From Corallococcus macrosporus DSM 14697 (GTDB taxonomy: Bacteria; Myxococcota; Myxococcia; Myxococcales; Myxococcaceae): a DNA stretch of 64,000 nucleotides. Both the position numbers and the translations under genes were made by a program. The notes below the pieces were generated by a model. The model did no database searches, was not told the DNA's origin, and saw only the letters and a list, made by a program, of their open reading frames with translations. Below, one piece after another: positions 34,957 through 39,353 of the stretch (the stretch's first letter is position 1; every line of letters starts with the position of its first letter). Where the stretch lies: positions 6,482,001 to 6,546,000 of the forward strand of contig NZ_CP022203.1 in assembly GCF_002305895.1 (NCBI RefSeq). The letters run 5' to 3'.

Positions 34957-35307
34957 GTGACCTTCTTCTTTCTGCTTCGAGGCCGCCGCCAAGGGCTGCC
35001 CGAACGACTCGTGCGGAGCGGACACCGCCCCGGCCCCCCAACGACAATCTCCCTGGCGATTCCTGTCCACCCGGCAACCGCCTTCCGGGCAGGCAGGCGT
35101 CCGCCAGCAGACAATCCGTAGCACCTTTCCCGTACGCCAGGGCCCCCCGTGGGCGGCTTCCCCTCACGCCCCCCACCCCTCCCCGGGGACGCCTTCACAC
35201 TTCTTCACCGCACGCGGGCGTGGCCTTCATACCCGCCCTCTACCTTCCCGCTCGTCACCACACGCGCCGGGCTCCCCCAGGTCCGGCCTCTCTGGGAGCG
35301 AGAAGCC
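34957..35307. other. Divergent intergenic region: csp leader and Spy-like gene promoter
   Basis: 351 bp without a supported gene. The left part is the 5' leader/promoter of csp (minus); the right part serves the Spy-like cassette (plus). No clear sigma-70 or CpxR-type direct repeat is visible. The C-rich right half would be a very G-rich minus-strand RNA. Confidence 0.45.
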
Positions 35308-35868
35308 ATGTTCGGATTTCTGTTCGGAACGGCCTGCCTTGCCGGCCTCATCTACACGGTTCGGGGCGGGCGCCACGGCCATCATCGCGGGGGCCGCTGG
35401 AGCTCGCGCGGCCGCCTCCGCTGGCTCTTCGAGCGGCTGGACACGTCCCCGGGGCAGGAGAAGGTCCTGCTCAAGGCCACGGACGACGTCATGGAAGCCT
35501 TCGCCAAGGCGCGCGACGAGCTGGGCCCCAGCCGGACCGCCCTGGGCACCGCGCTGCGCGGCGAGCACTTCGATGGCGCCGCCCTGCGCGAGCTCTTCGC
35601 CCGTCACGACGTCGCCATCGACAACGTGCGCCGCACGCTGCAGGGCTCGCTGGCCCAGGTCCACGAGGCGCTGGACCCGAGGCAACGCCGGGAGCTGGCG
35701 GACCTGCTCGAGCATGGCTTCGGCTCGCGCGGTGGCCCGGGGGGCTGGCACCGCCGCTGTGGCGGCCACCGTGGCTGGAGGGGCGGAGCCTTCGGCCACG
35801 GCGGCGGATATCGCCACGGGGACGGCGGCCACAGTCCCTGGGGACGCGATGACACCCGTGGGGTGTGA
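35308..35868 (+). CDS. Spy/CpxP-like (heavy-metal-resistor type) protein with His-rich ends
   Basis: A 186-residue protein with an N-terminal hydrophobic segment (FGFLFGTACLAGLIYTV), then HGHHRGGRW, then a helical Spy/CpxP-like core (about 45-140: LFERLDTSPGQEKVLLKATD, DALDPRQRRELADLLEHG-type end, the usual LT..QR..+-like feature), and a Gly/His-rich tail (WHRRCGGHRGWRGGAFGHGG). Spy-like proteins are envelope chaperones or metal-binding adaptors. The next three genes (His-rich peptide, response regulator, kinase) make a stress-sensing cassette. The ATG at 35308 has GGGAGCGAG upstream. Confidence 0.75.
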   Translation: MFGFLFGTACLAGLIYTVRGGRHGHHRGGRWSSRGRLRWLFERLDTSPGQEKVLLKATDDVMEAFAKARDELGPSRTALGTALRGEHFDGAALRELFARHDVAIDNVRRTLQGSLAQVHEALDPRQRRELADLLEHGFGSRGGPGGWHRRCGGHRGWRGGAFGHGGGYRHGDGGHSPWGRDDTRGV

Positions 35869-35914
35869 GCCCCGCTCCACTGGCCCCTTTCGCCCCTCCT
35901 GAAGGAGACACGTC

Positions 35915-36151
35915 ATGCGCCGCCGTCTGCTCATCGTCCTGCTCGCCCTGGGCACCGTCGGGGGTTACGCCTCCGGCTTCGCCAGCCTGGCCCGCCACCG
36001 CCATCACCTGCGCCACCACTGTCACCACGGCGCCTGGGAGCGCGGGTGGAGCCCGAACAGCCCCCACGGCCGGTGGGAGCCTTCCAGCCAGCGAGAGGTG
36101 GGCCCCCCGCTGACAACAACCCGCGTGTCCGTCCACACGGCCTCCCCCTGA
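35915..36151 (+). CDS. Small secreted His-rich protein
   Basis: A 78-residue protein; GAAGGAG 8 bp before the ATG at 35915 is the strongest Shine-Dalgarno in this cluster. A signal peptide (MRRRLLIVLLALGTVGGYASG) is followed by ARHRHHLRHHCHHGAWERGW, with seven His and one Cys in 20 residues, an obvious candidate site for Ni, Cu, Zn or Co. The rest is Pro/Ser/Thr-rich and disordered. It lies between the Spy-like gene and the two-component genes. A periplasmic metal buffer or sensor ligand is inferred. Confidence 0.7.
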   Translation: MRRRLLIVLLALGTVGGYASGFASLARHRHHLRHHCHHGAWERGWSPNSPHGRWEPSSQREVGPPLTTTRVSVHTASP

Positions 36152-36166
36152 AGTAGAAGGCGGTCC

Positions 36167-36847
36167 ATGTCCACGCGCGTCCTGCTCATCGACGACGACA
36201 CCCGGATGTACGAGCTGCTCGAGCAGTACCTCGGGCAGAACGGCCTCAGCGTCACCCATGCGGCCGACGGCGGCCGAGGGCTCGCGGCCCTGGAGGCCAG
36301 CGCCTTCGACGCGGTGCTGCTCGACGTGATGATGCCCGGCATGGACGGCCTGGAGGTCTGCAAGCGCATCCGCGCCAGGAGCCGCATCCCCGTCATCATG
36401 CTCACCGCGAAGGGCGACGAGACGGACCGCGTGGTGGGCCTGGAGCTGGGCGCGGATGACTACCTCCCCAAGCCCTTCAGCCCCCGCGAGCTGCTGGCGC
36501 GGCTGCGGGCCGTGCTCCGGCGCTCCCAGCCCTCGTCGGTGGCGGACCGGCTGGAGTCGGGCGGCGTGTCCATCGACGTGGCCGGGCGCGAGGTGCGCGT
36601 GGAGGAGCGCGCCGTGGAGCTGACCGGCCTGGAGTTCGATTTGCTCGTCGCGCTGGTGCGCAGGGCCGGGCGCGTCATCCCGCGCGACGCCCTGCTGGGC
36701 GAGGCCGGCCGCAGCGACACCGTGGTGGGCGAGCGCACCGTGGACGTGCACATCTCCCACCTGCGGCAGAAGCTGGGGGACGTGGGCACCCGCCTCATCA
36801 AGACGGTGCGCGGCGTGGGCTACGTGTTCGCCAAGGAGGGCCCGTGA
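36167..36847 (+). CDS. OmpR/PhoB-family response regulator
   Basis: A 226-residue regulator. The receiver domain (1-120) has the acidic pair Asp10/Asp11, phospho-acceptor Asp53 (LLDVMMPGMDG), Thr80 and Lys102 (LPKPF). The C-terminal winged-helix domain (about 130-222) contains LTGLEFDLLVALVRRAGRV and TVDVHISHLRQKLGD. Best family resemblance is to CpxR/RstA-type regulators. It overlaps the kinase gene by 4 bp, so the pair is co-translated. Probable targets are its own cassette and envelope genes. Confidence 0.93.
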   Translation: MSTRVLLIDDDTRMYELLEQYLGQNGLSVTHAADGGRGLAALEASAFDAVLLDVMMPGMDGLEVCKRIRARSRIPVIMLTAKGDETDRVVGLELGADDYLPKPFSPRELLARLRAVLRRSQPSSVADRLESGGVSIDVAGREVRVEERAVELTGLEFDLLVALVRRAGRVIPRDALLGEAGRSDTVVGERTVDVHISHLRQKLGDVGTRLIKTVRGVGYVFAKEGP

Positions 36848-38244
36848 GGCGCGGCCGTCCCGGCGGGCCCTGGGGCCCCAAGCGCGGCTGGGGCGACGCG
36901 CACGACTGCGGCCCCTGGGGACACCGGCACCCGCCGCACGGCTACTGGCACATGGGGCGCCTGGGCGGCTTCGTGCGCGCCCGGCTGCACCGCCGCCTGT
37001 TCATGTGGTTCGGCCTGTCCATCCTCGCCACCGGCGCCGTGGTGGCCACGGTGATGAGCCTGGTGGGCGGGGGCACGTGGAAACAGGAAGGCGACCGGGT
37101 GCGCACCTTCGTGGGCCACCAGTTCGAGGAGGTCTGGGACGAGCCCGCCCGGCGAAACGCGCTGGTGGAGTCCATTGCCAGGGATTTGCAGGTGGGCGTG
37201 GAGCTGCGGGACACCTCCGGCGCGGTGCTGGCGCGGACGAAGGAACCCTGCCGCCGGCCCGAGTTCAACCTGCCCGTGGTTCGAGAGGGCGTCCCCCTGG
37301 GGACGGTGCGCGCCTGCTACGCCAGCTTCCGCCCCAAGAGCCCGCTGCGGATGGCGCTGCCGCTGGTGCTGTCGTGCATGGTGCTGTGGCTGGCCGCGGG
37401 GAAGCTCGCGCGCAGGCTCGCCCGGCCCATGGATGAGCTGGTGCGGGCCACGCGGGAGCTGGGCTCGGGCCGGCTGGACTCGCGCGCGGACATCGCGCCC
37501 CATGTCACCGGGGAGTTCGCGGTGCTGGCGGACGCCTTCAACGACATGGCCGGGCGCATCGAGAAGCAGGTGGCGGACCAGCGCGAGCTGCTCGCCGCCG
37601 TGTCCCACGAGCTGCGCACCCCGCTGGCCCGGCTGCGCGTGTTGACGGAGCTGCTCCGCGACCGCGGCGGCAACCCGAAGACGCTGGACCAGGTGGACCG
37701 CGAGGTGGTGGAGCTGGATGCGCTGGTGGGCGAGCTGCTGGCCAGCTCCCGGCTGGACTTCGGGCAGCTCACGCCGCGCGTCCTCGATGGCCAGACGCTG
37801 GCCAGCCAGGCCCTGGAGCGCGCGGGGCTGGCGAGCACCCTGCTGGACGTCCAGGCGGAACACGCCGGCCTCGTAGGGGACGCGACGCTGCTGGGCCGCG
37901 CCCTGGCCAACCTCCTGGAGAACGCGCGCAAGCACGGCGCCGGCGCCGACGCCCTGCGCCTCCAGGAGCGGGGCGAGCACCTGGCCTTCTGCGTGGAGGA
38001 CCGGGGCCCCGGGCTCCAGCCCGGCGAGGACGTGCGCATCTTCCGGCCCTTCTACCGGAAGGACCACGGCACCGAGGCCCGTGAAGCCGGCTCCCTGGGA
38101 CTGGGGCTGGCGCTGGTCCAGCGCATCGCGCACGCCCATGGCGGGGAGGTCTTCGCGGAGAACCGGCCCGGCGGAGGCGCCCGGGTGGGCTTCACCGTGC
38201 GGAAGAGCGGCCCGCCGGACTCGGAGAGCCGCCCCGCCGCGTGA
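36844..38244 (+). CDS. Sensor histidine kinase (CpxA-like) with His/Cys-rich cytoplasmic N-terminus
   Basis: A 466-residue kinase starting at GTG 36844, which overlaps the regulator stop. An unusual leader (about 17-38, AHDCGPWGHRHPPHGYWHMG) precedes TM1 (LFMWFGLSILATGAVVATVM). A ~95-residue periplasmic domain follows, then TM2 (LPLVLSCMVLWLAAG), HAMP, the H-box with His255 (AAVSHELRTPLARLR), N-box (LANLLENARKHG), DRGPGL and GLGLALVQRIA ATP motifs. The leader is the only His/Cys-dense part and by topology lies in the cytoplasm, where it could bind metal. Phosphotransfer to the neighbouring regulator is expected. Confidence 0.92.
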   Translation: MRRGRPGGPWGPKRGWGDAHDCGPWGHRHPPHGYWHMGRLGGFVRARLHRRLFMWFGLSILATGAVVATVMSLVGGGTWKQEGDRVRTFVGHQFEEVWDEPARRNALVESIARDLQVGVELRDTSGAVLARTKEPCRRPEFNLPVVREGVPLGTVRACYASFRPKSPLRMALPLVLSCMVLWLAAGKLARRLARPMDELVRATRELGSGRLDSRADIAPHVTGEFAVLADAFNDMAGRIEKQVADQRELLAAVSHELRTPLARLRVLTELLRDRGGNPKTLDQVDREVVELDALVGELLASSRLDFGQLTPRVLDGQTLASQALERAGLASTLLDVQAEHAGLVGDATLLGRALANLLENARKHGAGADALRLQERGEHLAFCVEDRGPGLQPGEDVRIFRPFYRKDHGTEAREAGSLGLGLALVQRIAHAHGGEVFAENRPGGGARVGFTVRKSGPPDSESRPAA

Positions 38245-38427: not shown

Positions 38428-39252
38428 TCACTTCCGCGCGGAGGCGTCCTCGGCGGAGAAGGTGAACGCGGCTTCCGCCGGCGCGTCGTCCTTCACCGTG
38501 ACTTCGGCCGTCTTCGTGCCGAGCGTCTCGTGCCAGGCCTCCACCGTGTACGTGCCCGCCGGGAGGCCCTCGAGCGCGAAGGTGCCGTCCTCGCCCGTCG
38601 TCACGAAGTACGGGTTCTCCGTGGGAACGACGAACGCCGACATCCACGGGTGCACGTCGCACTTGAGCTTCAGCACGTCCGCGTCCGCGGGCAGCGGCCG
38701 CTCCACGGGCGCGCCGGACGGCGGCTGGGCGACGTTGAACGCGGGCCTGGTGCCCACGATGCCGCGCACGTTGTGCAGCGTGCCGTCGCTGTTCTTGAAC
38801 GCCACCTGCTGGCCGACCCGAGCGCCCTGCACGCGCGGGACGTAGGTGCACTTCGACTGGTCCACCACCACCGGGGTGCCCGGCGCCGCGGGCGCCCCGG
38901 GCACCTGGCCCTTCACGCGCACCAGCACGTTCCGCAGGTTGCCGTCATGCACCAACACCGACGCGTCCTTCGTCGCCATGCCCTCGCAGGCGGGGTCATT
39001 GCTGGCGGGGATGTCCTCGGCCGCGGGCGGCGTGCCGGTGAACTTCACGGTGCCCTTCACCACGCCCTTGCCCGCCGGAGCCACGGGCGCGGCGGCGGCG
39101 CCTTCGGGGGCCTGGATGGGCGAGGCGGCGTGGACCTTCTTCTCCGCGGGCGGCGTCGCGGCGGGAGCAGCCGGCTCCTCCTTCTTGCAGGCGGAGAGGG
39201 TCAGCAGCCCCGCGGTTCCCAGCAGCGTCAGGCCGAGCGTGCGCAGCGTCAT
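38428..39252 (-). CDS. Cupredoxin-like lipoprotein (probable copper protein)
   Basis: A 274-residue protein; signal peptide and lipobox LLTLSAC, then a Pro/Ala linker (to about 60). The cupredoxin domain (about 65-210) shows the type-1 copper ligand set: His in GTLHNVRG, then Cys, His and Met in KLKCDVHPWM. A carboxypeptidase-regulatory-like domain closes the protein (TTGEDGTFALEGLPAGTYTV). It could carry electrons or deliver copper to the terminal oxidase. It is on the same strand as the ABC exporter and haem O synthase genes but 101 bp from the first, so shared transcription is likely, not proven. Confidence 0.8.
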   Translation of the reverse strand: MTLRTLGLTLLGTAGLLTLSACKKEEPAAPAATPPAEKKVHAASPIQAPEGAAAAPVAPAGKGVVKGTVKFTGTPPAAEDIPASNDPACEGMATKDASVLVHDGNLRNVLVRVKGQVPGAPAAPGTPVVVDQSKCTYVPRVQGARVGQQVAFKNSDGTLHNVRGIVGTRPAFNVAQPPSGAPVERPLPADADVLKLKCDVHPWMSAFVVPTENPYFVTTGEDGTFALEGLPAGTYTVEAWHETLGTKTAEVTVKDDAPAEAAFTFSAEDASARK

Positions 39253-39353
39253 GGTGCAATCTCCTCGGGAAGTCAGGTGATGCGTCTGCCCACCTCGTAG
39301 CGAAAGGGGCAGCCCATGTCCAACCCACCGGGGCGCCGCGCCCGGGCGCTGAA

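Follow-up and report, generated by a model that had tools for sequence, protein, structure and literature searches.

The first-pass annotation placed a four-gene cassette (a Spy-like protein, a small His-rich protein, an OmpR-type regulator and a sensor kinase) at positions 35308-38244 of the window, the 64,000-nucleotide stretch of Corallococcus macrosporus DSM 14697 DNA that was analysed. All four open reading frames were confirmed, and the Spy-regulator-kinase cassette with its extra small gene is real (Table 1). The genes are co-directional and form a tight operon, with intergenic distances of +46, +15 and -4 bp in gene order. This spacing and overlap, and the Shine-Dalgarno sequences of the cassette genes, are kept in relatives, so the start codons, including the GTG of the kinase, are well supported. 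AAGGAGG sits 4 nt before that GTG, and because the site is conserved, the His-rich leader of the kinase is very probably translated. A longer start for the Spy-like gene, GTG 35149, was rejected, since the reading frame would cross the operator and the Shine-Dalgarno sequence is conserved at ATG 35308. A scan for the sigma-70 consensus upstream of the Spy-like gene gave no match, and a terminator scan was uninformative. The neighbouring genes for a cold-shock protein, a cupin, a cupredoxin-like lipoprotein and an ABC permease were rejected as cassette members because their conservation is mostly confined to the genus; flanking genes were undetected in the family- and order-level loci L030-L037. 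Downstream, a lipoprotein-like gene in convergent orientation (38428-39280, minus strand), whose CDVHPWM motif is cupredoxin-like, is kept within the genus.

Table 1. Features of the cassette in the window and predicted targets of its regulator.
Feature	Position	Strand	Evidence or operator
Operator, direct repeats CTTCAC, CTTCAC, CTTCAT	35193-35198, 35203-35208, 35225-35230 (span 35193..35230)	+	upstream alignment, pattern counts
Possible -10 element TACCTT, conserved	35241..35246	+	upstream alignment; role putative
Spy-fold protein, PF13801 Metal_resist	35308..35868	+	profile match, model, alignment
78-aa small membrane protein, unnamed family	35915..36151	+	alignment, omega, gene linkage
OmpR-family response regulator, Response_reg + Trans_reg_C	36167..36847	+	profile match
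HAMP sensor kinase	36844..38244	+	profile match, alignment, model
Predicted target: cassette operon itself			operator at 35193..35230
Predicted target: periplasmic Spy	L183 1501-2064 (own genome about 7061901-7062464)		operator about 120 bp upstream
Predicted target: 390-490 aa protein, signal-like start, possible beta-barrel (outer-membrane-type)			
Predicted target: siderophore-interacting FAD-binding protein (PF08021)	L191, L192, L210, L211		
Predicted target: DUF4440/SnoaL-like protein			
Predicted target: 80-aa MLLDMYLFFCLP protein			

The first-pass annotation had proposed searching other myxobacteria for this gene order, and had held that absence of the small gene from related loci would speak against its reading. 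The order proved to be conserved across Myxococcota. In a set of 27 genomes from the genus, which includes Myxococcus xanthus, the kinase was present in 27/27 and the gene order wherever the contig was long enough. A scan for the Spy-like protein with one genome per species returned 80 loci, nearly all from Myxococcota; they came from Myxococcus, Corallococcus, Archangium, Hyalangium, Sorangium, Polyangium, Minicystis, Sandaracinaceae and Nannocystaceae. The small gene lies directly 3' of the Spy-like gene in 72 of the 73 loci with room for it, and regulator and kinase genes follow next in 61 of 68 testable loci. Seven loci have a Spy-like gene without regulator or kinase and still keep the small gene, which indicates that the closest partnership is that between the Spy-like and small genes. 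In the Polyangium loci L111, L112, L115 and L119, Spy-like and small genes occur with operator half-sites and without an adjacent regulator or kinase. In phylum-wide searches the small-protein profile was found in 88/174 genomes and the Spy profile in 119/174, a count that takes in other Spy families. The regulator is 92-99% identical within the genus and 72-76% identical in more distant relatives at the family and order level. Among the 80 loci were records titled Comamonas, Actinomycetota and Proteobacteria, of which the first is clearly Myxococcus and the rest are likely to be misassigned MAGs. The Comamonas record (L069, BNCN01000001.1, titled Comamonas sp. KCTC 72670) holds a Myxococcus cassette, and its title is probably wrong.

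The Spy-like protein consists of an N-terminal anchor (residues 1-19), an R/H/G-rich linker (20-35), a helical hairpin (48-136) and a Gly/His/Cys tail. It matched PF13801 at E=7e-12 with 46 bits, above the curated cut-off of 29.2, and its AlphaFold2 model is a helical hairpin with a core pLDDT of about 90. Foldseek matches for the model include Spy, CnrX and ZraP at probabilities of 0.91-0.97 with weak E-values, and CpxP reached a Z of about 8 in VIA-align, where several de novo coiled coils scored similarly. Given the weak E-values and the similar scores of designed coiled coils, these matches support the fold class only, within which Spy, CnrX, ZraP and CpxP are the best biologically sensible matches for the model. 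PDB sequence searches using the Spy and sensor profiles returned weak matches only.

The first-pass reading of this protein as simply periplasmic was not borne out. In 114/114 sequences the anchor starts at residue 1-3 and no Lys or Arg stands before it, and the 20 residues that follow the anchor hold an average of 4.9. By the positive-inside rule, this charge pattern predicts an N-out/C-in anchor, so that the Spy domain of the cassette may face the cytoplasm and not the periplasm. Should the reversed anchor be real, the cytoplasmic location of a Spy-fold domain would be a surprise. A PF13801 search of the genome found only one Spy gene besides that of the cassette. The n-region of the second Spy protein in these genomes (MMKRFAVVGSALLAVALLSGF...) is basic, as in a normal signal peptide, and a periplasmic location is expected for it.

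The kinase comprises a His/Cys leader (residues 1-38), a basic stretch, TM1, a PAS-like extracytoplasmic domain, TM2, HAMP, HisKA and HATPase; the basic stretch before TM1 indicates that the leader is cytoplasmic. A Cys136/Cys158 pair occurs in the extracytoplasmic domain of 54/56 sequences and could form a disulfide. Several sensor domains, among them those of BaeS and CusS, gave weak PAS-like matches to the model of this domain. Regulator and kinase match the CpxR/BaeR and the CpxA/RstB/BaeS models, respectively, every one below its equivalog cut-off (183 bits against 341 for CpxR and 160 against 486 for CpxA).

The operator lies 115 bp upstream of the Spy-like ATG and could be aligned in 25/25 upstream regions of Myxococcus and Archangium. 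The alignment shows CTTCAC-N4-CTTCAC with a third half-site 22-23 bp further on, and the conserved operator reads CTTCAY-N4-CTTCAY. A 16-bp pattern of it, CTTCAYNNTTCTTCAY, had 139 matches in the 27 genus genomes, at 4-6 per genome, and the reversed-pattern control had 0. The pattern was found in 81/86 family genomes. In 18 relatives with no cassette Spy gene detected, it averaged 0.6 per genome; these genomes are smaller, so that the per-megabase difference is about fourfold. A relaxed form stands upstream of the Spy-like gene in 55/79 loci, with about 0.01 expected per region. From this position and co-occurrence we infer that the regulator binds CTTCAY-N4-CTTCAY.

In the part of the genus sites examined, the operator lies 97-168 bp upstream of six gene classes, which we list as predicted targets in Table 1. 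Other genera of the family also have sites upstream of the second Spy gene. The site at the siderophore-interacting protein gene was found in several other genomes and not in the own genome. No metal-export genes, efflux pumps, P-type ATPases or DegP/DsbA homologues were found among the operator sites examined, and no metal-resistance genes among these sites or the genus-conserved adjacent genes. There are only a few targets per genome, and the predicted regulon is small beside that of Cpx. A recurrent match inside rpsG was attributed to coding conservation and rejected as a target; some matches to the pattern are therefore not regulatory. Individual sites include that of a 393-aa envelope-type protein with no Pfam match (L180 1501-2805; own genome about 349627-350931; operator 123 bp upstream), and longer proteins share this type of site in other species (L188, L199, L212). 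In several Myxococcus genomes (L184, L186, L187, L194, L214) a conserved 80-aa protein, MLLDMYLFFCLPLP..., with no family match lies 3' of an operator site.

Taken together, the four genes, found across Myxococcota, would form a stress-signalling unit that resembles the E. coli Cpx system and has an added small membrane protein. We consider it rather probable that the operon encodes a Cpx-like two-component system for envelope stress, together with two accessory proteins bound to the membrane. The predicted targets point to envelope maintenance more than to metal export, and this favours such a role over metal sensing. The kinase would read the envelope through its PAS-like extracytoplasmic domain, for which the fold match is weak, and its conserved Cys pair. 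It would phosphorylate the OmpR-type regulator, which would bind the direct repeats and induce its own operon, the periplasmic Spy chaperone, the outer-membrane-type protein and the other targets. The Spy-fold and small transmembrane proteins would act as a pair, since their linkage persists in loci that lack regulator and kinase, and from their place in the membrane they would probably attenuate or adjust the kinase, as in CpxP-CpxA and MgrB-PhoQ. That the Spy-fold protein, the small protein and the kinase interact is suggested by gene linkage alone.

As with CpxP-CpxRA, a Spy-fold accessory protein is encoded beside an OmpR-family regulator and a HAMP kinase with a periplasmic sensor, and the operator is a direct repeat with a period of about 10 bp. 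Read on the opposite strand, the repeat is GTGAAG-N4-GTGAAG, which is similar to the CpxR box, GTAAA-N4-8-GTAAA (PMC5063474), although the half-site here is GTGAAG. A Spy-type chaperone, predicted here as a target, is also a member of the Cpx regulon (PMC6737893). The cassette differs from CpxP-CpxRA in that its Spy gene opens the operon and is read in the same direction as the other genes, instead of diverging from them. In addition, the Spy domain is anchored and predicted to be C-in, a periplasmic signal peptide of the CpxP type being absent by the topology rule only; there is an extra small transmembrane protein, and regulator and kinase fall below the Cpx cut-offs. The cassette would work like Cpx yet add an unnamed small membrane-protein family and possibly a reversed Spy anchor. 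Our literature search returned nothing specific on this cassette, on cytoplasmic His-rich kinase leaders or on Spy in Myxococcus, and no Cpx-type envelope-stress system of myxobacteria. The cassette is a phylum-wide envelope-stress candidate whose operator is defined and whose list of predicted targets is short.

The dense His content of three of the four proteins, with which the first-pass annotation had begun, was confirmed. The Spy-like protein carries HGHHRGGRW and a tail of His and Gly. Seven His fall in an 11-residue stretch (28-38) of the 78-aa protein, and residues 20-36 of the kinase leader, a segment that stops about 15 residues short of TM1, include five His and one Cys. The sequence does not support the additional claim that each lies in a different compartment. 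Two of the three grounds for refutation named in the first-pass annotation, lack of His conservation in orthologues and absence of the small gene from related loci, were checked and did not apply. His richness is broadly kept as a property, with a total of at least 6 His over the four segments in 70/72 de-duplicated loci, but the segment carrying them changes between lineages. Among 99 cassette kinases, some genomes being counted twice, His makes up on average 14.7% of the final 30 residues of the leader. At least four His were found in the leaders of 71/99 and at most one in 11/99; the His leader is therefore common but absent in some lineages, and is not a defining feature.

On the Cpx-like reading, the His-rich segments of the Spy linker, the small-protein tail and the kinase leader would be variable ligand or charge segments that tune sensitivity to metal or pH. 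Alternatively, these runs of His, Gly, Arg, Trp and Pro may be low-complexity drift in high-GC genomes, with the cassette working regardless. This would suit leaders that vary from 13 to 212 residues and keep composition rather than sequence, and loci with few His such as L031 and L065. However, 9 of the 11 other HAMP kinases of the own genome that were scored have no His at the equivalent position (the exceptions have 2 and 4), an enrichment of the cassette kinase above its genomic background, and an omega of 0.29 indicates constraint on the leader. We regard segments without ligand function as fairly unlikely, and they would be compatible with the Cpx-like reading.

A dedicated metal-sensing function like that of ZraPSR or CnrX, with His and Cys as ligands for Cu, Zn, Ni or Co on either side of the membrane and a kinase that activates metal resistance, is possible but unlikely. 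It would account for the His-dense, Cys-containing segments of several proteins, a property retained by most loci, for the HDHHDHHDHREHH-type linkers in some relatives (L128) and for the siderophore-interacting protein among the predicted targets. ZraP and CnrX share the helical-hairpin fold class with the cassette Spy protein and contain His, and this fold kinship speaks for the same reading. CnrX is also membrane-anchored. The anchor orientation predicted here, however, is opposite, the His lie in linker and tail and were not shown in the fold core, and the output is OmpR-type rather than NtrC-type or ECF. Metal efflux or sequestration genes were found neither beside the cassette nor at the examined operator sites, the His segments evolve fast (as in the small-protein tail), and the leader His are missing from some kinases. 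The known copper two-component system of M. xanthus, CorSR, is another locus. It likewise has a myxobacterial kinase and regulator whose operon also encodes a His-rich envelope protein (PMC3707914), but its gene content comprises a cupredoxin, a multicopper oxidase and CopA, with no Spy-fold or small transmembrane protein seen in the portion of the description consulted. Identity of the cassette with CorSR was rejected on this difference in gene content.

The 78-aa protein had been taken for a secreted His peptide, and this was not supported. It has no match in Pfam or NCBIfam. It starts with MRRR, within the N-terminus MRRRLLIVLLALGTVGGYASGF, and continues with a transmembrane helix bearing G13-x3-G17-x3-G21 and a His/Cys-rich tail. 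The helix pattern G-x3-G/S-x3-G/A (GxxxGxxxG) was present in 107/107 members; shuffled helices gave a mean of 20. In nine close species, omega was 0.06 for residues 1-28, close to the 0.08 of the regulator and lower than the 0.22 of the kinase, and 0.48 for the remainder with the His tail. The tail is His/Cys/Pro in Myxococcus and an RRxxFExHVAxxCxxAA module in Polyangia and relatives. These data fit a small bitopic membrane protein with the helix as its working part. A cleaved peptide acting as a periplasmic metal buffer, for which MRRR and the hydrophobic stretch would merely be a signal peptide and the Myxococcus His/Cys tail the mature part, is improbable, since the hydrophobic segment is much more constrained than the mature part and the glycine spacing is phylum-wide, whereas the Polyangia tail is unrelated in sequence.

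The small protein shares with MgrB-type regulators a constrained transmembrane segment and a conserved Cys, probably on the extracytoplasmic side. MgrB is likewise small, with a basic N-terminus, a functional transmembrane helix and a conserved periplasmic-side Cys. Its transmembrane region and W20 are needed for PhoQ binding, and C28 and C39 are also needed, which sets a precedent for function residing in the helix (PMC8404706). Unlike MgrB, to which no sequence relation was shown, the cassette protein has GxxxGxxxG instead of Trp, has one Cys in most Myxococcus members and is co-encoded. It represents an unnamed membrane-protein family tied more tightly to the Spy-fold gene than to the kinase.

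A further elaboration is more tentative, and we give it a minority chance: a cytoplasmic-face Spy domain with a reversed anchor, paired through GxxxG with the small transmembrane protein, might together with the kinase His leader form a cytoplasmic module that responds to metal or pH and gates the envelope-stress kinase. If true, this module would link cytoplasmic and periplasmic state in one sensor. Separately, kinase leaders of about 200 residues with AWEEHRRAWEEHR-type repeats, possibly an added coiled coil, were seen in L052 and L055.
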